Source of the DNA: Dermatophagoides farinae
Lineage: Eukaryota; Arthropoda; Arachnida; Sarcoptiformes; Pyroglyphidae
Direction: 5' to 3'
NCBI RefSeq assembly: GCF_024713945.1
Contig: NC_134682.1
Coordinates: 620,001-684,000, forward strand
Length of the DNA stretch: 64,000 bases
The notes beneath the pieces were generated by a model that made no database searches, was not told the origin of the DNA, and was given only the letters and a program-made list of their open reading frames with translations. Below are positions 9,607 through 47,255 of this stretch, piece after piece. The position numbers and the translations under genes are program-made. How positions within the stretch are numbered: position 1 is the stretch's first letter; each line of letters starts with the position of its first letter.

Positions 9607-12600
9607 ATGGCTAAATTATTCTATTCACACGGCAAATTTTGTGCCTCCCATCCATGGGAAGTGATGGTTATATTTTTATCATTGGCTATCTGTATTGGAA
9701 CGATGGGTCCTTTTGTGATGATTGAACAACAACAACAACATAACCATAATCACCATAATCAGCAGCACCAGCAGCAGCAACAACAATCGATATTAGATAA
9801 ATCAATGAGATATTATGGTCCACAACAACAACAATCAAGATGTCAACAACAACAACAACAACAGGAATCAACAACATTATTCCATAGACATTCAAAAAAA
9901 TTGGATGATAATGATTCATTTCAATTTGATGATTGTTCACATAATTCACATCATCATCAGGTAGATATATTTAATTTAATTTCAAAATTTTAAATATTTT
10001 TTTTTGTTTTTTAGTCAAAACCAACAACTGTAGAATATAATAGTAGACAGCAGCAGCAACAAAATTACCATCATTATCATCATCATCATAATCATAATCA
10101 TCATTCACAGCCGTCCAATAATGTAGATAGTACAGAAATATTGATATTAACAATATCCCGATGTTTGGCTTTATTATATGTTTATCATCAATTTCGTAAT
10201 TTATATAATCAATCCAAATATTTGGTTGGAATCGCCATGTTATTCACCGTATTTTCCAGTATAATGTTCATGTCTGGTGTTTTAAATTTTTTCGATGGTA
10301 ATTTTGCCGTTCTGAATAAAGCAATACCATTTTTTATATTATTATCGGATCTAAGTAAATCTTGTTCACTGGCAAGATTTGCTCTTTCATCATCGAATCG
10401 AGTAAGTTTTGTTTGTTTGTTTTTTTTTTGTTGTGATTATCGTGAATATGAAATCATAATCCAATCAAATGATAAAAATGATAAAATAGGAAGAGATACA
10501 AGAAAATATAGCTAGAGGAATGGCAACGCTTGGTCCTTCGCTTACATTGGACACATTGGTCGAAACATTGGCTATCGGTATGGGTACCATTTCAGGATTG
10601 CCTCGTCTTGCCGAAATTAGCTACATTGCCTGTTTAACTGTTATCGTTAATTATATCGTATTTATGACATTCTTTCCTGCCACATTATCTTTGGTCCTTG
10701 AAGTGAGTAATAAAATTGATTGTAATCATCATGGTGTTAATGTTTTTTTTTTTCGAATTTCAAGTTGGCTCATGATGGTGCAAATAAACCAGCCTGGCAG
10801 TTTAGCTCATTGGCCAAAGTTTTACAATTGGAAACCGAACACACACCTAATCCAGTGATTCAACGTGTCAAATTGATTATGTCAGCTGGTCTTATGATGG
10901 TTCATATGTTAAGCCGATGGCCATTGGTTAATGATGAAAATGATGGTGGTGTATTGGATTCATTCAAATCATCATCAGCTGTTTCATCAGCTAGTGATAA
11001 ATTAGCCGATGATGAAGTATTCAATTCATTTACAACTGGATTAATGAATGCTGTTGGTACTGAACAAATTCTTATGATTGGCCTTATGTTTGCTTTGACT
11101 ATAAAATATTTTTGGTTCGAAAATCTTGATATTCATTCTCGGTTATCATCATCTTCTTCCAATAATATTCACAATTCAAATGGCAGTTCGTTTGCTACTT
11201 CCAAAGATGTAGAAGAATTAAAATCATCATCATCTTATAAAAATTCCGAGCTTAAAGAAGATTGTAGCAGTGAAACAAGTTCAAATCTTAGTGAAAGCTG
11301 TAGTAATACAACATCTACCACTCCATCATCTACTAGACCAACAACGCCGACAACAATATCATCAACTGGTGATGAATCGGATAATTCTTTACAGCATTCA
11401 ACTAACAAATCGAATGGTTGTTCAACGACAAATTCATCGACCACAGAAAATTCTGATACTGAAAGTGTTCTAGGTCAATGCCGTCATAAATGTAAGTTTT
11501 TAATTTTAATTTCTGTAAAATTTATAAAACTCAATTTTTTTTCATTAATTTTTAGTATCGTTCTCTTCAAATGGAAGACGAACATCAGCCAAAAATATCT
11601 GTGTTGATGATCAACTTGCAACAAGTAGTGGTCATGGTACTGATAATGAAAATGAATCGACACAACAAATTTCACATGACAATAATAACAAATCAGATGC
11701 ACCGGCATTTTTTATTGGTGATGATTATTGTAATGATTCCTCGGATTGTTATTCATCCGATTCAAATGTTCCAGAATATATAGATTCTAGTACACAAACA
11801 GATACGATTCCAAATATTGTTGCCGATGATTCTTTAATCACAATTACCGATTCAACGGCGTGTAACGCAGCAGCAACAACAACAACGATTGATGATGATA
11901 CATTTAGAGATATGGATGAATTGTTATCGATACTTGGTCAAGAAGATGGTTATTCTAAGCTATCAAATCGAGAAATTGAATTTCTTGTTGCCAATAAAAA
12001 AGTTCCAGCCTATAAATTGGAATCTTTACTGAATAATCCTGAACGTGGAGTATCGATTCGAAGAAAAGTGATCGAAAATATGGCCAATACACAAGGCGTT
12101 TTAACTAATGTGCCTTATCATGGTTATAATTATAACCTTGTTTTAGGAGCTTGTTGTGAAAATGTTATCGGTTATATGCCGATTCCACTTGGAGTGGCAG
12201 GGCCATTATTGTTGAATGGTCGTCAATATTATGTACCAATGGCAACTACCGAAGGTTGTTTAGTTGCCAGTACTAATCGAGGCTGTAGTGCAATAGCAGC
12301 CGCTGGCGGCTGTCGTGCTAAAGTCTATTTCGATGGAATGACACGTGGTCCACTACTATATTTCCGTAGTGCTATGGATGCCGCCGCAGCTCAAGAATGG
12401 ATCAATAGAACGGAAAATTTTTATATTATCAAAAAAGCTTTTGATTCTACATCACGTTTTGCTCGTTTACAAAGCATCAAATGTTCATTGGCTGGCCGAT
12501 ATCTTTTTCTAAGATTCGTAGCATCCACTGGTGATGCTATGGGAATGAATATGTTATCAAAAGGCACAGAATTAGCATTGGAAGAATTAGCCAAACATGT

Positions 12601-13479
12601 AAATGGATTAGAATTAAAATGTTTGAGCGGTAATTTCTGTACCGATAAAAAACCATCAGCTGTAAATTGGATTGATGGCCGTGGTAAATCCGTAGTGTGT
12701 GAAGCAAGGATTCCTAAAAATGTTGTACAAAAAGTTCTCAAAATTGATGTGAAAAAAATCGCTCATCTGGGTAATTCTAAAAATTTGATTGGATCTGCAC
12801 TTGCTGGATCGATAGGTGGTAATAACGCTCAAGCGGCTAATATTGTTGCTGCTATTTACATTGCTACTGGACAGGTTAGTTATATTATTGAGAAAAATCA
12901 TTCTAAATTCTAAAATCGATTCATTTTATAGGATCCAGCTCAAGTTGTTGGAAGTGCCAATTGTATGACATTATTGGAAGTAGAAGATAATGGAGATTTG
13001 TACATATCTTGCACGATGCCTTCTATTGAAATTGGTACCATTGGTGGTGGTACGGTTCTTGGGCCACAAGGAGCATGTCTTGAGGTATGTAACTGATGAA
13101 TTTTTTATGCAATTTTAATTTTAATATTTTTTCTATACAGCTTCTTGGATTAAAAAATAAAAATCAAGCACCGGGTGAAAATACTAGAGAATTGGCACAA
13201 ATTGTTTGTGCCACTGTGTTGGCTGGTGAATTATCATTATTATCAGCGTTGGCTGCTGGCCATTTAGTTCGTTCACATATGAAACATAATCGTTCTACAA
13301 TCAATATACAAGCATCAGCTGCAGCGGCCACACTTGAAACATTGTGTCCAAGGTCATCGGTTCCATCATTCGTTGGTTCGAATGGTGGCAGTGGTGGTGG
13401 TGGAATATCATCATCATCATTATCCATAACAACACCTCCCAATAGTTATACGTTAACAGTGCCTAGGACAGGAATTTAA
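9607..13479 (+). CDS. HMGCR: 3-hydroxy-3-methylglutaryl-CoA reductase
   Basis: ER membrane enzyme that reduces HMG-CoA to mevalonate with NADPH, the committed step toward isoprenoids. Seven exons: 9607-9960, 10015-10401, 10490-10702, 10765-11491, 11556-12874, 12932-13084, 13141-13479. They join in frame to 1163 residues, longer than the 888 of the human enzyme. The N-terminus ([12 protein letters not shown]) and sterol-sensing membrane region (about 159-318) match the family. The catalytic part (about 690 on) shows [26 protein letters not shown] (Glu793), [15 protein letters not shown] (Lys925), Asp1001 after ATGQ, GTIGGGT and His1097 in SHMKHNRS. Two insertions lengthen it: a Gln/His-rich loop between the first two membrane spans (about 42-158) and a Ser/Thr/Asn-rich linker (about 440-680). 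A possible poly(A) signal AATAAA is at 13491. The start is the ATG before AKLFYSHGK; a spliced upstream extension remains possible. Confidence 0.96.
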
Positions 13480-14607: not shown

Positions 14608-16326
14608 TTACCACAATCTTTTAATTGCTTGTGGTAGAATATGTTCAAAATATTTGATAAATTGTTCCAAATGTTGTTCGGAAACATTTGGCACCAATTT
14701 GGTCCATTTATTAACACAGGCAATATTCTGTTTGACCGTTTTTCGTCGTGAATAACAATCACTTTCGAATATTATCATATCCGAATTGATCAGATTGTTT
14801 ATGGATTTTATAATCAATCCCATTCGTGTTTTACGTAATAGTGTACAGCCAATACTCCAATTGAATAGATCGGCACAGGTGAATATTTTAACATCTTCAT
14901 TACGTAAATGGCGTAATAGAATCATTAGAAATATGAGATCATTTTTTTTCAATCGAGATATAGCAATAATTTGTGGATCAGTAATCAATGATAAAAGTTT
15001 CGTCTTTTTGTTATTTTCTTTATTGTCCATTTCAAAGTTATTGTCATTACGGTCATCCGGTTCGTGATAAAATGAATATTCAAAAACAATACGATTGATT
15101 TCATTGAAATTTGGATTGATTGCAAACGATCTCACTAGTTCAGATTCAATCAGTGATTTATTGGCAATGAAATTGGTTTCCAATGTTGGATTCTCTTGAC
15201 AAAGACGCTGTATCCTGGACATGCAACAAGTTTTGTATAAATCATATTGTTTGAATGGCGATACTAAATGAACGACACGTTGTGTTAATCGTGATCTGAC
15301 CCGTTTTTCTAAAAGTTCAATATAATCAAGTCTTCGTGTGATGCCTATGACCAAAATCGATCGGCCATGTTGTGTTAAATCCAATAGATTGTAAAGCAGT
15401 GTCTGTTGTTTTCTACAGAACACATCAAAATTATCCAATACAATAATCGAACGAAAATTTTGATAATTTTCAGTCAAATTACGAAACTGAGACATAATCT
15501 TCGGTATAGAATTATTTACTCTTTCCGACAGTTCCAGATCATCAAACATCAAGTCTCTCTCATCATCTGTTAAATCAAGATCGTTGCTGTCTTGTTGTTG
15601 TTGATCGAGAAACCGATTTAAACATCGACCAATCAAACGTATTGTTGCTAAATCATCTTTGCCATGAATGGCGCCATCAAATTTGAACAATGCAACTTTA
15701 AGATGATTGAAATTGTTGACTTTAAAATTTGCATCATTATTTTTATGATGATTCAATGATGATGATGATGATGAAGATTTTGATAATGAGGACGATGACG
15801 ACAATACCGGAAACGATGTGAGACAAGTTTCAATTAATTTCGTTTTACCAACACCAGCATCACCACAAACAATCAACGAGTTAGCTTCCGATGTTTTCAA
15901 AAGATTTTCAATCATTTTGTTAATGTAAATGATTTCATCATTGTAAGAATTGAAAAGACCATTTTGACCACCATCATCAATACAACAATATGATGAATGC
16001 GTCTTTTCTGTCACATTGTCATTTACAAGATTTTTATCATCATTTGGTTTCTCAACATCAACAACAGCATTCAACGATAGTTTTTTCTTCTTCTTCTTAT
16101 TCATCTTCTGATTACAATTGCTGTTACAATTTTGAGTTTCATTTTTACTTTTTTTAGCAATTTTACTTTTACTAGATCTTTCATCTTTGTTGTTTTTCGT
16201 TTTCGTCATTTGTTGTTGTTGTTGTTGTTGTCGTCGTCGTCCATTGGTGGGTGTAGTCAATGTTTCGTCCGATGCTTCAAGTCCTTTTGTTAAAATACGA
16301 CAACTACGACGACGTGTTTCAATCAT
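14608..16326 (-). CDS. ORC4: Origin recognition complex subunit 4
   Basis: AAA+ subunit of the six-subunit ORC that marks replication origins and loads MCM2-7 in the nucleus. The single long coding exon gives 572 residues; human ORC4 is 436. The first ~140 residues are a Lys/Gln/Asn-rich low-complexity extension. The Walker A is GDAGVGKT (about 155-162) and the Walker B is IIVLDNFD (about 293-300). The stretch IELLEKRVRSRLTQR carries the arginines typical of ORC4. The C-terminal half resembles the ORC4 winged-helix region. Most metazoan ORC4 proteins have an acidic residue where this Walker B has Asn. A splice acceptor (TTTCATTCAG) ends at 16334, just 5' of the chosen ATG, so a non-coding or short coding 5' exon probably exists upstream. 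It is divergent from the LPMO gene. Confidence 0.93.
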   Translation of the reverse strand: MIETRRRSCRILTKGLEASDETLTTPTNGRRRQQQQQQQMTKTKNNKDERSSKSKIAKKSKNETQNCNSNCNQKMNKKKKKKLSLNAVVDVEKPNDDKNLVNDNVTEKTHSSYCCIDDGGQNGLFNSYNDEIIYINKMIENLLKTSEANSLIVCGDAGVGKTKLIETCLTSFPVLSSSSSLSKSSSSSSSLNHHKNNDANFKVNNFNHLKVALFKFDGAIHGKDDLATIRLIGRCLNRFLDQQQQDSNDLDLTDDERDLMFDDLELSERVNNSIPKIMSQFRNLTENYQNFRSIIVLDNFDVFCRKQQTLLYNLLDLTQHGRSILVIGITRRLDYIELLEKRVRSRLTQRVVHLVSPFKQYDLYKTCCMSRIQRLCQENPTLETNFIANKSLIESELVRSFAINPNFNEINRIVFEYSFYHEPDDRNDNNFEMDNKENNKKTKLLSLITDPQIIAISRLKKNDLIFLMILLRHLRNEDVKIFTCADLFNWSIGCTLLRKTRMGLIIKSINNLINSDMIIFESDCYSRRKTVKQNIACVNKWTKLVPNVSEQHLEQFIKYFEHILPQAIKRLW

Positions 16327-16892
16327 ATTGTCACTGAATGAAAAAAAAAGAAAAGAAAAAGTGTTAGCCAATTTGTTTAGGCAAAAAAAAAAATCTTGGC
16401 AAATATTAGATTGTGGTTGTTATTTTTTATTTTTATTTGAAATGGAAAACATTTCAAATGACAACTATCATCATCATCATCAGCATCAAAAATGACCACC
16501 ATACAACAGAGCCTCATCATCATCAACAAGTCCCATCATCAACTTGTTGATGATCTGATTGTTGATGCTGTTGTTGTCAATGGGAATGAAACCAGTCCTG
16601 AGAAAGTTCTTTGATCTTGCTACAATTTACGTGTGTAGGTATAATATGTTTTGAGTGCATACCACCCATAATCACCAGAAATTCATTAATAGAAAAAAAA
16701 GGGTTAAAAACCTATGATCAACCCGAAAAAAGTTTTTTTTTGCTCAACTAGACAATCTCGTTTTTTGAAAAAGTATCTTTTTTTCATCGTCGTTGTAATC
16801 AATTTCTTCAAAGTCATCATTCGTTTTTTGTATTGGCCATCAGAAAAGAATCATCTCATCTACTATAGGGAAATTCTTTCACAAATGTTAAA
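16327..16892. promoter_or_regulatory. Divergent intergenic region between ORC4 and the LPMO gene
   Basis: About 570 bp between two start codons that face away from each other. It must hold the 5' leader and promoter of the LPMO gene and at least an intron and leader of ORC4 (acceptor at 16334). It is less repetitive than most spacers here; no clear TATA box is seen for either gene. Shared control is possible but not shown. Confidence 0.5.
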
Positions 16893-19951: not shown

Positions 19952-22900
19952 TTACATATCAACATCTTGATCTGGTTCATCAGCAGCATGTGGTTGTTCA
20001 TCTTCACTACTATGTTCTTCTTCATCATGACTTGATGTTTTCAATGAACCATTATTCAATGTTGTTACACGTAGATATTCAGGTTCCGGTTTGTTCTCAT
20101 CATATGTTATATTCAAACCAATTTTATATTCATATTTAGCATTATAACGAACAAATTTATCCGGCGGTGTTTCACAATTAACAGAAATTGATCGTAATGT
20201 TGTATGCGATACGGTTGTCGAAGGCATTCGAAATTCAACATGAACAAAATCATAAAATGTTTCTGGTATTCGATCAAATGATGATAATGGTAAACGAACC
20301 AACATTAATTGTTGCGTATAAGCTCCTATCGTTCATCAGGATTTAATTAGTTTCCGATATAATCAACATTAATCGGGACTTACCTTGTCCGTCTTTGGGC
20401 AATTTTGGGATACGCCATACGATTGAATGATATGCATGTTCATATTTTGCTAAACCAGCTGTCACTTCAATCAATTGAGGTTCAGGATTTGCTGCAGTTC
20501 CCAGAATACGATCCAATCCCTATTTATGGTATGATATGATAAGAATGTGAATAAATTAAATTTCATCTACCATCATTTACCTTAAGTTTTCCAGAACGTC
20601 TATTAGTGGAATGAACAGCTCCATAGCGGAAATGTTTTTCTACCCTAAAAAAATATACCCAACATTCAGGTATATGAAAACGAATGGCAATATCTTCACA
20701 TGGTATTTGTCCGTGTTTTCTCGATATACATCCAGGTACCAGAATGTCACATTTGAGCTCCATTTTCGATGGTGTAATATTCATATAAGCGCTGACCTGT
20801 AATGGAAGTTCACGATTCTTTGGTGGACGGATGCGAAATCGCATCATTTCAAATTGACATGCATCCGGTGGTATCAAACGAATAACTTGTTCAGTTTCAA
20901 AATATTGATCTTGTACACAGGAATGAAATTCTTGTCGTTCAACACGAATCCATTCTTCAGTCACTACAGGTAAAATATCATGCCGTCCAACAACTTCTTT
21001 GCCTTGTCTTCTTAGATCATTTATACCAACTTCAATGACTGGCATTCCTGTAAATATTTTTCGACAGAAAAAAAGAGAAAATAACTTGATCAACTTCATT
21101 AGACAAAATAAGACTAACCATTTAAAAATGCAAGAAAAAATATCCGAACACGAGCCAATTGTTTTTCAACAATACCAATTTTGTTCTGTTCAACATAACA
21201 TTCATCTTGTACACAACATTGAATCTCTTCAGTACGATAAGTTAGTGCACGATCACGATGAACAGTCATACGAAACATTGATTCTTCAACAACCGTCAAT
21301 AGTTCTTTAATGTCATTATATTCAAGTGTACCCAATTTAAGTAATTCACTGATTTGTGGTGAATGTTCGACAGGCATTCCAAGTTTGGCAAAATCACCCA
21401 TAGATTGAATCTGACCTTGCATGACTTTGGCAATTTGTCCCGGTCGAACACCGACACGTTCACGATAAAATATGTATTGCACTTTGACAGTGAATATCTT
21501 CCCATATTGATCATATTGTTGTGGAGAAATTTCCGATAACGAATACGATGCTTGTAAGGGTAACTCCTGAAATGGTTGAGCATCACCTTTCTTATTAAAC
21601 AATTGTAATACACAAGTTTCAGGTATGAAACGGACAAATATTTTCTTCCAATAACGATTTGCTGTTAACTTTTTCTTGGCCGGATGTCGCAACATCATTT
21701 CCCATCCTTCACCCAGATATGGCGGTGGATAATCTTCGAGTGGCTGAGATGTATCCTCATCATAAAGAGGTGTTTGTGGTGATGCTGGTGAATCGGTTCC
21801 AGCAGCTGTACGTTGTTGTTTTGAAGCGGCTTCACCAAATGCAGTTGGCCATTCAGGTTCTTCTGTCGTAGCCGTATCGGCAGTTTCTGAACCTCGACGA
21901 TTTTCTGAACTGGCAAAAAATCTTTCAAATTCTTCATCGATAAAACTTTTTGCAGTCTTTTTTGGTTTTATTGCTGACGAACTACGATAACCGGTCAATA
22001 TTAAATCCTCTTCACATAATTCTCCTTCCTCTTGTTCGATATCTTTTTCAGATTGAGGAAGACGCTTTGGTGACTTTGGTGGAGGTGGTAATAACGGAAG
22101 TGCTACAAGAAACAAAGAAAAAATTGAAAAATCAAATTTTATTATTACATTGAATTATATATCATACCCAAATTTGAATTGGCTTCCGATTGATTTGTAT
22201 CATTGTTTTTAGCTCTAATAACAATTCGAAAACTTTCCTCTGGTTCATCATCATCATCACCATCATCATCGAATGAATCGGAATCTTCGAAAGAATCTCT
22301 TTTCTTTTTTGGTTTCTTGGCCACTTTATATGGTGTATTTTCAGGCTGTTTGGGCACGAATGGTTCGAACGTATCAAAACCTCCAATACCATCTTGATTA
22401 TTAGCATTAGATTTTGCCGTTTTATATGGTGATGCAAATGGATCATCTTCAATACGGACAATTTTTTCACTTTTATCAGTAGCTTCGAAACGAGATTCAA
22501 ATGCCTCAAAAGCCTTCGAATCGAATCCACTTGTATCGAATGGATCTTTCGATTCCAAGCTAGGCTCATCACCATCAGTTGTTTGTGCTTGATAATCCAA
22601 ATTGTTGTCAACTAATTCCCTTAATGAATTAGGTTGTAAATTTTCGATAGCAACTTCAGCAATATCGACCGATGACATTCGATCTGTTGCTCTTTCATCT
22701 ATGTCTTTTTTTGATTGTGATTCAGGATTATTATCTTGTTCATCGTTGAAAGCATCATTAATGATTCCTTGAGCATTAACATTTGGTTGGCCAACATAAT
22801 TCAAGTCAAGGCTATCATTTCTGCCTATGATATTATCAAGGCCAATAATCTTTGCATGATTTATCTGTAATAATTCATCATCAATAATATTAATGGCACT

Positions 22901-24170
22901 AATGCATAGATCATTAGTTTAACTTACTGCTTTGCTTTTATGCTGTGTTGTTTCTGCCATTGTCACTGATGTTGCTGAGTCTGGAACAATTTCATCATTG
23001 TTGTCACCATCTTCAAAATAAGAAGTGATTGGTGAATCAACAAAAACAGTAGTAAATGGATCAAAATGGGACGAACTACGTATAGCATGCTCATCTGTAT
23101 GGTGTTCACCTGTTTTTCTGATGATTACATCATCATCATCATCATCATCGTCATCAACATCTTGGCTTTGTCTGCCTGCGGTCTTCGATACTCGACGCAA
23201 TAAAATCTCAGACGATGTTATCGGTTCAAACTTTCCCTGTTCATCGTCTTCTTTTTTTTTATCATTGATTGCTATCAATTAAAAATATAACATAACATTA
23301 ACATTGTTTCAATTTTTTTTTTAAATTTCACTCACCTGTAAAAGCATCAAAGGCACTGCGAATATCATTCGCAACAATATTACTTGGTGATATATCGGAA
23401 AGATCGGATAGATCGGATGAATATGGTTCAATTTTTTGTGGAGCCATCAATAAATCGGTTGGACTTATCGGTGATGAATCTTCAGCATTTGTTGATACAG
23501 GTTGAACTTCAACACGATTGGCTGCAGCCAATAATTCAATTTCATTCATTGATGAATGAAATAATTCTTTGGCTTTTGATGAGGTTATTTTTCGAATATT
23601 TTCTTCATCATTTGTGGATGAAGATTTCCTTTGTTCGATTGAAGATCTTTTGGAAGAGAAATTTAGATCATCATCATTAATGGTTTGGAATGGATCGAAT
23701 ACAGTGGTGTCATTATTCGAATCAAAATTGGTTATTGTTTTCACTGTAGTTATTGTTGTTGTATTTACATGATCATCACTATCATGAATCACTTTATCAT
23801 CATTGATTTTGTTTTGTTCATCAGCGAAAACATCTTCATCAAAATTTGTTGACGTTTTATTGATACTTTCGAAGAAATCGGCTGACATATCGGCAATGGC
23901 ACTAGCAAAATTTTTCGCTGTATTTGATGTTTCATCATCATTGTTGTTGCCAAGGAATGTGGTAGTTTCATTTTCTGGTGATAGAATTTCAAACGGATTG
24001 GTTGAATTACGTCTTTTTGGTGTTCTGGCTCCGACTATTGTATAGAAAATATTAGAAATGGATGATGAAAATATCAAAAAAAAAAACATACCTGAATATG
24101 GTGTTTGTGTTCCGGACGCAGAGTATGGAGTATAACTTTCTTCAAGATCGGCTAAAAATGGATTGGACAT
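19952..24170 (-). CDS. stnB: Stonin / stoned B, endocytic adaptor (second ORF of the stoned locus)
   Basis: Cytosolic adaptor that binds synaptotagmin and AP-2 and recycles synaptic vesicle proteins. Eight exons on the minus strand: 24170-24092, 24034-23336, 23271-22928, 22864-22168, 22102-21119, 21047-20581, 20519-20384, 20325-19952. They join in frame to 1259 residues. The N-terminal half is acidic and disordered, with NPF motifs (MSNPF, STNPF; EH-domain ligands) and DPF motifs (DPFDTS, DPFASPY, DPFQT). The stonin homology domain starts near YLGEGWEMMLRHPAKKK and the mu-homology domain runs to the end. The hallmark LNGMPVIEVGINDLRRQGKE spans the exon 5/6 junction, followed by RPPKNRELPLQVSAYMNI. 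A short acidic tail ends in DQDVDM. The ATG lies 23 nt after the stop of a stoned A-like ORF on the same strand, with no room for a separate promoter, so one dicistronic mRNA is inferred. Confidence 0.93.
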
Positions 24171-24193
24171 TTTGTTGTTTTTGTTTATTTCAA
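24171..24193 (-). promoter_or_regulatory. 23-nt intercistronic spacer of the stoned locus
   Basis: Between the stoned A stop (TAA, 24196-24194) and the stoned B ATG (24170). On the sense strand it is an A-rich tract without an ATG and without a splice acceptor, ending AACAAA directly before the start codon, a good initiation context. It has no room for a promoter, so the second ORF must be read by reinitiation, leaky scanning or internal entry, unless alternative splicing removes the first ORF. Confidence 0.7.
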
Positions 24194-25239
24194 TTAATCT
24201 TTGATGGCCAAATCTTTTTGTATAGTCGATTCAATATAACTAGTATCAAATGGATCAATTTCATCGACATCAATGTCTTTGATTAATGTTGGTTTCAAAA
24301 TCGATTCACCACTTTTAATGGCTTCAACATCAATAAATGACGTATCGAATGGATCGATCGTCGGCTCTTCAATGGCAAATAATGATGTGTCTGTTTTTGT
24401 TTTTTCACCATCCACTAATGGTATTCCTGGTGCTGGATTGGTGAATCCAAAATCTTCAATTAATTCCCGTGCAATTCGTTTTGTTTCTTCGTCAATCACT
24501 GGCTTGGTTTTGTCCTTATCTATTGATTGCTGTTGTTCAGTCTCGTCTGTGTTTTAGAGAGAAAAACGAATCCAAATAATCCAGTCTCTTACACCTATTG
24601 CAAATATTCACACATACCTTGTTTAGGAAATTGAAATATTGGATCTGATGGATTATAATCGGCTGTTTCGTCGAATGCTGCCCAAGCACCGATATTTTTT
24701 GGTGCCGTTTCGTCAAATTGATCTGAAAAAGTGGGATCTTCAAATTTGCTGATTTCTTTAACAGCTGATTCGGTTTGTAATTTTTCCAACACAGTTTGTG
24801 TTTTCGATGTTACAGCATCAGCTTTGGCTGTTAATGATAGAAAAAATTTCCACTCTTCACAATCTTTTTTACTTTCTTCTTGTTGACGTAGTTTTTCTCG
24901 TTCCTCTTTTCTATATTCTTCTTCTTTAGCTTTTAATTCTTCAAGCGATAATTTTGGCTGCTCTTGTTGTTGTTGTTGTTCCTGTTCACCAAATGATAAA
25001 GGAAATGGTTCACCAACTGTTATATTATTGACTGAATCAAAATTAGCAAAATTTGTATTTGTTGAATCAAATTTAATTTTTAACTGATCATTAATATCTG
25101 TTGTTGTTGTTGTTGTTGTTGTTAATGTCGATGGATGTGGCGGTATTTCAGGCACATAATTATCGAAATCATCATCATCATCATTTTTACGTTTGGGATT
25201 CCCAACGACTTTGGTGATTTTTTTCTTCAAATAGTTCAT
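24194..25239 (-). CDS. stnA: Stoned A-like protein (first ORF of the dicistronic stoned locus)
   Basis: Two exons, 25239-24618 and 24546-24194, join in phase to 324 residues. Position directly 5' of stoned B, the Lys-rich start (MNYLKKKITKVVG), a charged coiled-coil stretch (SLEELKAKEEEYRKEER, about 100-130) and repeated acidic DPFDTS motifs near the C-terminus (TIDPFDTSFID, EIDPFDTSYIE) match what is known of stoned A, a presynaptic endocytic protein. DPF motifs typically bind the AP-2 appendage. Poly-Thr and poly-Gln tracts lie in the first third. After the initiator the protein has no methionine at all. I assign stoned A from synteny and motifs; sequence similarity to fly stoned A could not be measured. 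The start is the first in-frame ATG; a short leader intron may precede it. Confidence 0.8.
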
Positions 25240-44900: not shown

Positions 44901-47255
44901 CCGTGTGTCAATTACGAATTGGATTTTTTTTTGTTGTTGTTGTTTTCGTTGTGTGTGTGTGTGTCGATCCATTCTCCATTCCATTCGGTTTTTTTTCCAT
45001 TTTTTTTTTGTTCGACCACAAACTTAATAGCTTAATTTATTAACATTAAAATGAGAGAAATAAAAACGTGTCCGATCTCTTTCGCATATGTTTTTTTAAT
45101 TTTTTTTAGATAATTTAAATTGTCTTTTTGGTTTGATTCTGTTTGTCTTTTTTTTTTTATTTTGGTTATAGTTTTCAAAAAATCTAGATGGCTCCGCTTC
45201 CGGAACTTCATCGTCGTCATCATTATCATCATCATCATTGTTTTTAGATCAGAGCATTATTCAATCACAACAGCAGCAACAAAATTCAGATTCATCATCA
45301 CCATCATCATCATCATTGCATCCAATACAATCGAATAATGCAATTTTTCATCCTTTGTTACCGCCACCATCATTGCCGCTAACATCGCAACCAGAATCTT
45401 TATTGGATTCTACAGCAGCAACAGCAACAACGTTGACCAATGAAACGGAAATTCTTCAACGTATCTATCGTCATTTAAATTTACAACAATATCGAAATCC
45501 AGATCCGAAAGACAAACAAACCAAAATCAAATCCATTTCACCATCAACTGATTTCAACAACAACAACAATGAAACAACAATGTTACAATTATGGGAAAAA
45601 TATCATCACAATCCACAATCGGATTTGATTTCAAATCCAGATGTTTTAAATTTAAAAGCCACAATTCAACAACAACATCTTCAGGATAACATTAACATTT
45701 TTGCTGCATCCAAAATTCATCATTTATCACAACAACAACAACAGCAACAACAACAACAACATTTGACAAACACTGGTTGTTCATTATATGAATCATTATC
45801 GGCCAATACAATTCAAACCCTTATGAATTCACGTAATAATCATCAAACGAATATTAATCGATCGACAGTGGAATCCGATAATAATCCTCATTTTCGAAAC
45901 AATTCGTTGCATAATAATCAAATTCATCATCATTCATCTCCTTCTTCTGTACACCAGTATTTATCACAAACCAATCTTTTACATCGAATAAGCACAGAAA
46001 ATCCATCGACATTTAATCTGGAAAATTATCTTCATGGTCGATCATCGAGTAATTTATTCTTGAACAATTTACTTCTTTCAACATCACATCAACATTTCCA
46101 TCATCAATCCACATCTGATTTACATCAGAATCAAATAAAATTAGCAACGGCTGCAGCGGCTGCAGCAGCAGCGATGGCTACAACAGCAAAAAATTCAACA
46201 GATTCATCAAATGGAATTGCTCCAATCAATATGGAAGCATTGGATATTGAAAAAATGTCAAATTCAATTCTGAATCATTATAATGCTGCTATGTTGATGC
46301 CAAATTTATTGAATAATTTTACGGAATTAAAATCCAATTCTAAAATGGAAACATCACTGAAGAACCATAATAATCATCACCAACAAGAATCATTTCATAT
46401 GGATCATCAACAAGAATCGACCAAAGAATCGTTGATTAATCAATTGCAACAAAAAACGGAAAAAATTCTAGATAAAACTATGAATAAAAAATCAAAATCA
46501 AGAGATTCATCATCATCATCAATTCTTTCATCGAATAACGGTCGATTTATTTCGAAAAATTCCCGTTCTTCTTCAGAGAAAAATGGTAACTGTTATCAAA
46601 TAAATTCCGGCACAATCTTAGAGGCAAATCAAATTGCACCAGAATCGATGATAATCACTCGAATGAATGGCAGTGGTGGTGGTAAAAATAGTCGATCATC
46701 GTCTAGTAAAAAATCTAGCCAAGAAAATCGAAACAACGTCCACAATGATAATATTCCATTTTTGTCAAGAAATCCACATGAACATGGACATATAAAACGG
46801 CCAATGAATGCATTTATGGTTTGGGCAAAAGATGAACGTCGTAAAATATTGAAAGCATGTCCTGATATGCATAATAGTAATATATCGAAAATATTGGGTG
46901 CACGTTGGAAAGCGATGACAACCATTGAGAAACAGCCATTCTATGAGGAACAATCACGTTTATCACGTGTTCATATGCAACAACATCCAGATTATAGATA
47001 TCGGCCACGGCCAAAACGTACTTGTATTGTTGATGGGAAAAAATTACGTATATCCGAATATAAACAATTAATGCGATCTAGACGGCAAGAAATGCGTGCA
47101 TTATGGTAAGTTTTATAATAAAATAAAATAAAATAAAATTTAGTTTTACATGCAAACAAAGAATGAGAAAAAAAAATCGAAAAACATCAAATCAAATAAA
47201 TTCAATAAATTGAAATTGATAACATAAAAACAAATCGATCAATAATGCATAGGTA

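Follow-up and report, generated by a model that had tools for sequence, protein, structure and literature searches.

A probable dicistronic stoned locus in the astigmatid mite Dermatophagoides farinae

Stoned A and stoned B of Drosophila are nerve-terminal proteins that act in synaptic-vesicle cycling. In Drosophila melanogaster, they are encoded at the stnA/stnB locus, which is described as a stoned A open reading frame (ORF) followed by a stonin ORF. According to the published accounts, internal AUGs are scarce in the first ORF (ORF1) of both stoned and Snapin of Drosophila, the second ORF (ORF2) is translated through leaky scanning, and in-frame AUGs in ORF1 attenuate ORF2 (PMC3372440, PMC11892635, both referring to Wall 2005); for stoned, the lack of in-frame AUGs in ORF1 is said to allow translation of ORF2. 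Here we describe, in a 64,000-nucleotide (nt) stretch of the genome of the mite Dermatophagoides farinae (hereinafter the window), a pair of adjacent ORFs in the same order that probably represents a dicistronic stoned locus, with a single mRNA for a stoned A-like protein and stoned B, the latter presumably translated through leaky scanning.

In ORF1, the mite locus shares with Drosophila stoned, as the latter is described, a lysine-rich N terminus, a helix, DPF repeats and the lack of internal in-frame AUGs, and in ORF2, the NPF motifs and a mu-homology domain. Compared by description, it differs from the fly locus in the length of ORF1 (324 amino acids, aa), in the number of DPF repeats (two in the mite and four in the fly) and in a predicted intron within ORF1. 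The Drosophila Snapin locus and the bicistronic loci of green algae encode different proteins but, as presented in PMC11892635, have in common with the scheme proposed here the presumed translation of ORF2 by leaky scanning and few internal AUGs in ORF1; the algal loci are reported to deplete AUGs ahead of ORF2, whereas in the mite out-of-frame AUGs are not depleted. Caenorhabditis elegans UNC-41 and the mammalian stonins are stonin proteins, as mite ORF2 appears to be; UNC-41 contains DPF motifs, beyond which no similarity to stoned A is described (PMC3393740). Two papers from 2012 present stoned A as restricted to insects or as lacking homology outside insects (PMC3393740, PMC3373503), and their accounts agree with the statement in an earlier note on this DNA that vertebrates have only the stonin part. 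Among the matches listed in the open-licence PMC literature, there is no report of a non-insect stoned A; automatic annotations in sequence databases, which were not searched, may exist.

Layout of the locus and its two proteins

The TAA stop codon of ORF1 occupies positions 24196-24194 and the ATG of ORF2 positions 24170-24168, both on the (-) strand, with a 23-nt spacer (24193-24171) between them, which reproduces the coordinates given in the earlier note (stop at 24194, ATG at 24170, same strand, 23 nt apart). ORF1 consists of two exons (25239-24618 and 24546-24194) that would be joined by removal of a 71-nt GT-AG intron (24617-24547); unspliced, the frame closes after 214 codons. An in-frame TGA is located two codons upstream of the ORF1 ATG. 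ORF2 comprises 1259 aa in eight predicted coding exons that extend from 24170 to 19952 without an internal stop, separated by seven predicted introns, all GT-AG and 57-71 nt long. The ORF1 stop, the spacer and the ORF2 start lie within a single 455-nt exon of the gene model, the acceptor of which comes from ORF1 and the donor from ORF2; this common junction exon suggests that both ORFs are carried by one mRNA. The components of the locus are as follows.

24618..25239 (-): stoned A-like exon 1, aa 1-207, with the Lys-rich N terminus and the long helix (ATG-opened frame, codon usage, AlphaFold2)
24547..24617 (-): predicted stoned A intron, 71 nt, phase 1, GT-AG (from sequence)
24092..24546 (-): junction exon, 455 nt, with the stoned A end, the spacer and the stoned B start (flanking acceptor and donor)
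24194..24546 (-): stoned A-like exon 2, end of the protein with DPFDTS twice (aa 272, 305) and the TAA stop
24171..24193 (-): intercistronic spacer, 23 nt, A-rich, without AG, with AATAAA, little predicted structure and CAACAAA next to the ATG
24092..24170 (-): stoned B (stonin) coding exon 1, begins MSNPF
23336..24034 (-): stoned B coding exon 2, NPF and DPF motifs
22928..23271 (-): stoned B coding exon 3, DPF motif
22168..22864 (-): stoned B coding exon 4, DPF motifs including one DPFDTS
21119..22102 (-): stoned B coding exon 5, runs from upstream of the mu-homology domain into it (the AP-2 mu match begins here)
20581..21047 (-): stoned B coding exon 6, mu-homology domain (Pfam PF00928, AP-2 mu chains)
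20384..20519 (-): stoned B coding exon 7
19952..20325 (-): stoned B coding exon 8, last part of the mu-homology domain and stop (Pfam PF00928, under cut-off)

Two further features of the gene model were noted. A pyrimidine-rich, acceptor-like stretch (25262-25240, (-) strand), with its AG (25243-25242) two bases upstream of the stoned A ATG, makes an upstream 5' leader exon possible. The first stoned B intron (24091-24035, (-) strand, 57 nt) contains no in-frame stop, so that its retention would add 19 residues to stoned B.

Both ORF1 exons are coding, as indicated by open length and codon usage. In a background sample of 200 kb (29.6% GC) from the 62.4-Mb, 22-contig assembly, stop trinucleotides account for 6.1%, so that a 215-codon open frame is expected by chance with P ~1e-6 and a 118-codon one with P ~6e-4. 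Among the sense frames of the two exons, only the expected frame has a positive codon-usage score (0.244 and 0.200, respectively); one antisense frame per exon is slightly positive as well (0.077 and 0.102).

The identity of ORF2 follows from its domain and motif architecture rather than from alignment with a stonin, and this architecture points to a stonin as opposed to another mu-homology protein. The ORF that holds exon 6 matches Pfam PF00928 with an E-value of 1.5e-19, and AP-2 mu chains match the C terminus of ORF2 (E 2e-10). For exon 8, the match to PF00928 (E 2.4e-4, 21 bits) is under the curated cut-off of 31.6, and exon 5 alone matches no Pfam family. In the N-terminal part of ORF2, NPF occurs twice (aa 3 and 39) and DPF four times (aa 140, 330, 481 and 515).

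ORF1 appears to be a putative stoned A, given its position and its resemblance to the printed architecture of that protein, in which lysines are abundant at the N terminus, a coiled coil follows and the C terminus carries four DPF repeats (PMC3373503). Seven of the first 20 residues of ORF1 are K or R, and its C-terminal part contains two repeats, DPFDTSF and DPFDTSY, at aa 272 and 305. The AlphaFold2 model of exon 1, built from the single sequence, includes one long helix (aa 99-164), in which block values of the predicted local distance difference test reach 88-93 between residues 101 and 140; confidence is lower elsewhere (mean 61.3). Against the assignment, the two DPF repeats fall short of the four in the printed protein, and the heptad pattern is weak, with only 35% hydrophobic residues in the a/d positions of the best register. 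The block EEWKFFLSLTAKADAVTSKTQ may resemble insect stoned A; we treat it as a lead and not as support. The reading of the locus as a dicistronic stoned gene, put forward in the earlier note, agrees with the adjacency, order, strand and domain layout observed; the assignment of ORF1 to stoned A is based on position and printed architecture. No second copy of ORF1 was detected in the mite's own genome at E <= 0.001 (only the two exons in the window scored among 20 candidates), and no relatives of stoned A or stoned B were found in genome_contigs and viral_contigs, which were scanned for arthropod contamination.

AUG content of ORF1 and access to stoned B

The 324 aa of ORF1 include a single in-frame Met, the initiator. 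In 23 stop-to-stop ORFs sampled for a length of 324 codons or more, none of 5025 sub-windows of 323 codons is Met-free, and the chance of a Met-free ORF1 is 0.0009 at the Met frequency of 2.15% in 50 sampled stop-to-stop ORFs of at least 200 codons, although these sampled ORFs are unverified and some of them overlap. With all of stoned B as the reference for internal Met, the chance is 0.006. The claim of the earlier note that coupled translation of the two proteins matters receives some support from the absence of internal in-frame AUGs in ORF1, a feature that the note does not mention.

Under leaky scanning, cap-dependent ribosomes would start at the middling stoned A AUG, and a fraction would scan past it without encountering another in-frame AUG within ORF1; the short out-of-frame ORFs would be bypassed or survived by reinitiation, and these ribosomes would finally initiate at the AUG of stoned B, located in the leader CAACAAAAUG. 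An additional AUG in frame with stoned A should do more harm than one out of frame, since ribosomes that used it would be committed to a long ORF closing 23 nt ahead of stoned B, a point from which reinitiation should be inefficient. Reinitiation after an ORF of 324 codons is expected to be poor.

Several observations on the start codons weigh against this scheme or temper it. When the internal Met rate is taken from aa 2-648 of stoned B, the chance of a Met-free ORF1 rises to 0.08, and stoned B itself contains a Met-free run of 304 residues; the lack of internal Met in ORF1 is therefore supportive but not decisive, and is not extraordinary for a disordered protein. ORF1 further contains 12 out-of-frame AUGs, all in one frame, which open ORFs of 2-38 codons that close before ORF2. 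Synonymous shuffles rejected a depletion of out-of-frame AUGs: 13.2 are expected in the +1 frame compared to the 12 present (P 0.25), and 1.2 in the other frame, where there are none (P 0.10). Accordingly, strict scanning past every AUG is not supported. Nor is the closure of the out-of-frame ORFs ahead of ORF2 a sign of selection because such ORFs overlap stoned B in none of 1000 shuffles (in 28% of the shuffles, none exceeds 38 codons); the last of the actual ones end only ~22 nt before stoned B.

The start contexts were scored with a small model built from 35 unverified starts: stoned A scores -0.02 (rank 15 of the 35 sampled starts), which is average and not clearly weak, and stoned B 1.56 (rank 24). 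Of the 12 out-of-frame AUGs, the seven nearest to stoned B have poor contexts (-1.55 to -3.79, which places them between the 7th and 32nd percentile of the ATGs sampled), whereas the first is in a good one (1.1), and the mean context of all of these is not clearly weaker than in synonymous shuffles (P 0.087).

Competing explanations and implications

The locus could also consist of two tightly packed genes with separate mRNAs, with stoned A polyadenylated at the AATAAA in the spacer and stoned B expressed from a promoter or an acceptor inside stoned A; we regard this as unlikely. The AATAAA has an expected frequency of ~4% in 23 nt at the genome-sample rate but is less surprising given that the spacer is A-rich. 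The earlier note held that there was no room for a promoter or an acceptor. This is correct for the spacer, where an acceptor ending in AG is excluded because the spacer contains no AG, but not for the upstream coding sequence: the scanned part of ORF1 exon 2 contains 18 AG dinucleotides (for example, in CATTTGATACTAG, 69 nt upstream of the stoned B ATG), so that an acceptor or promoter inside ORF1 is possible by sequence. Many dicistronic loci of Drosophila are described as producing monocistronic mRNAs as well (PMC4528330). Against separate mRNAs, one 455-nt coding exon would have to accommodate the end of one transcription unit and the start of the other, and the absence of in-frame AUGs from ORF1 would be left unexplained. 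The same absence is accounted for neither by an internal ribosome entry site nor by reinitiation immediately after the stoned A stop, the two routes by which stoned B could be started without scanning. The short, A-rich, weakly structured leader and the good start context would suit such a route, and the 12 out-of-frame AUGs obstruct simple scanning. However, there is no structured element near the stoned B start (minimum free energy of -5.1 kcal/mol over 100 nt compared to a mean of -8.45 kcal/mol for shuffled sequences), reinitiation would have to follow the long ORF1, and the Drosophila work, as reported in PMC11892635, favours scanning; on balance, a non-scanning start appears doubtful.

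A different objection is that ORF1 might be an upstream coding ORF peculiar to the mite, with no relation to stoned A. Speaking for this, Pfam yields no credible family for ORF1 (a single match far below the cut-off). Nevertheless, ORF1 agrees with the printed stoned A in position, order and strand and has the lysine-rich start, the long helix and DPF repeats near the C terminus; two or more DPF arise in just 147 of 20000 shuffles of the ORF1 protein, and we consider an unrelated ORF1 quite improbable. Finally, an additional fusion protein could be made if the junction exon were skipped (24618/24034), with aa 1-207 of stoned A continuing in frame into stoned B from aa 27 onward. The introns on either side of it are both of phase 1, and no stop interrupts the joined frame in the 440 codons tested, but phase agreement is a one-in-three chance and the skipping is predicted from sequence, so this product seems highly improbable.

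We regard as evenly balanced the proposition that stoned A and its dicistronic coupling date to the common ancestor of mites and insects, with a ban on in-frame AUGs kept ever since and out-of-frame AUGs left free. Such an asymmetry would show by what route animal ribosomes gain access to a second cistron nearly 1 kb downstream, with short frame-shifted ORFs being tolerable and a long in-frame restart not. A mite copy in the same arrangement would place the origin of a natural dicistronic gene of animals further back, near the root of the arthropods, a divergence of more than 500 million years, and the Drosophila reporter result on in-frame AUGs would then become an evolutionary prediction for chelicerate and crustacean genomes.

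Other features of the window and the genome

Three other coding regions in the window were assigned to protein families. An HMG-CoA reductase exon (PF00368, E 2.6e-97) is located at 11912-12913 on the (+) strand. An AAA ATPase ORF (PF00004) occupies 14608-16371 on the (-) strand and is possibly an origin recognition complex subunit. An HMG-box protein with long Q/N/S-rich stretches (PF00505, E 6.6e-24), perhaps of the Sox type, is encoded at 45238-47109 on the (+) strand.

Elsewhere in the genome, there are 38 stretches of the papain family (PF00112), seven of which were compared with PDB. One of these, L050, matches Der f 1/Der p 1 with E-values of 4e-21 to 4e-20, compared to 5e-11 for the best non-mite chain, and is identical to Der f 1 in 36 of 52 aligned columns; another, L055, matches only group-1 mite allergens at E 1e-12 or better. 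Four of the seven are cathepsins or other papain-like enzymes, and one has no match at the threshold. The two allergen-like exons are what an astigmatid mite would be expected to carry, whereas the remaining five do not point to mites; among the seven, no near-identical Der f 1 or Der p 1 occurs. One of seven PF02221 stretches, compared in the same way, was uninformative. A cluster of papain-family genes comprises L041 and its neighbours (G000:C6:4883586-4889723); L041 contains SCAVFS where its PDB match has SCWAFS, and these genes perhaps encode altered proteases.

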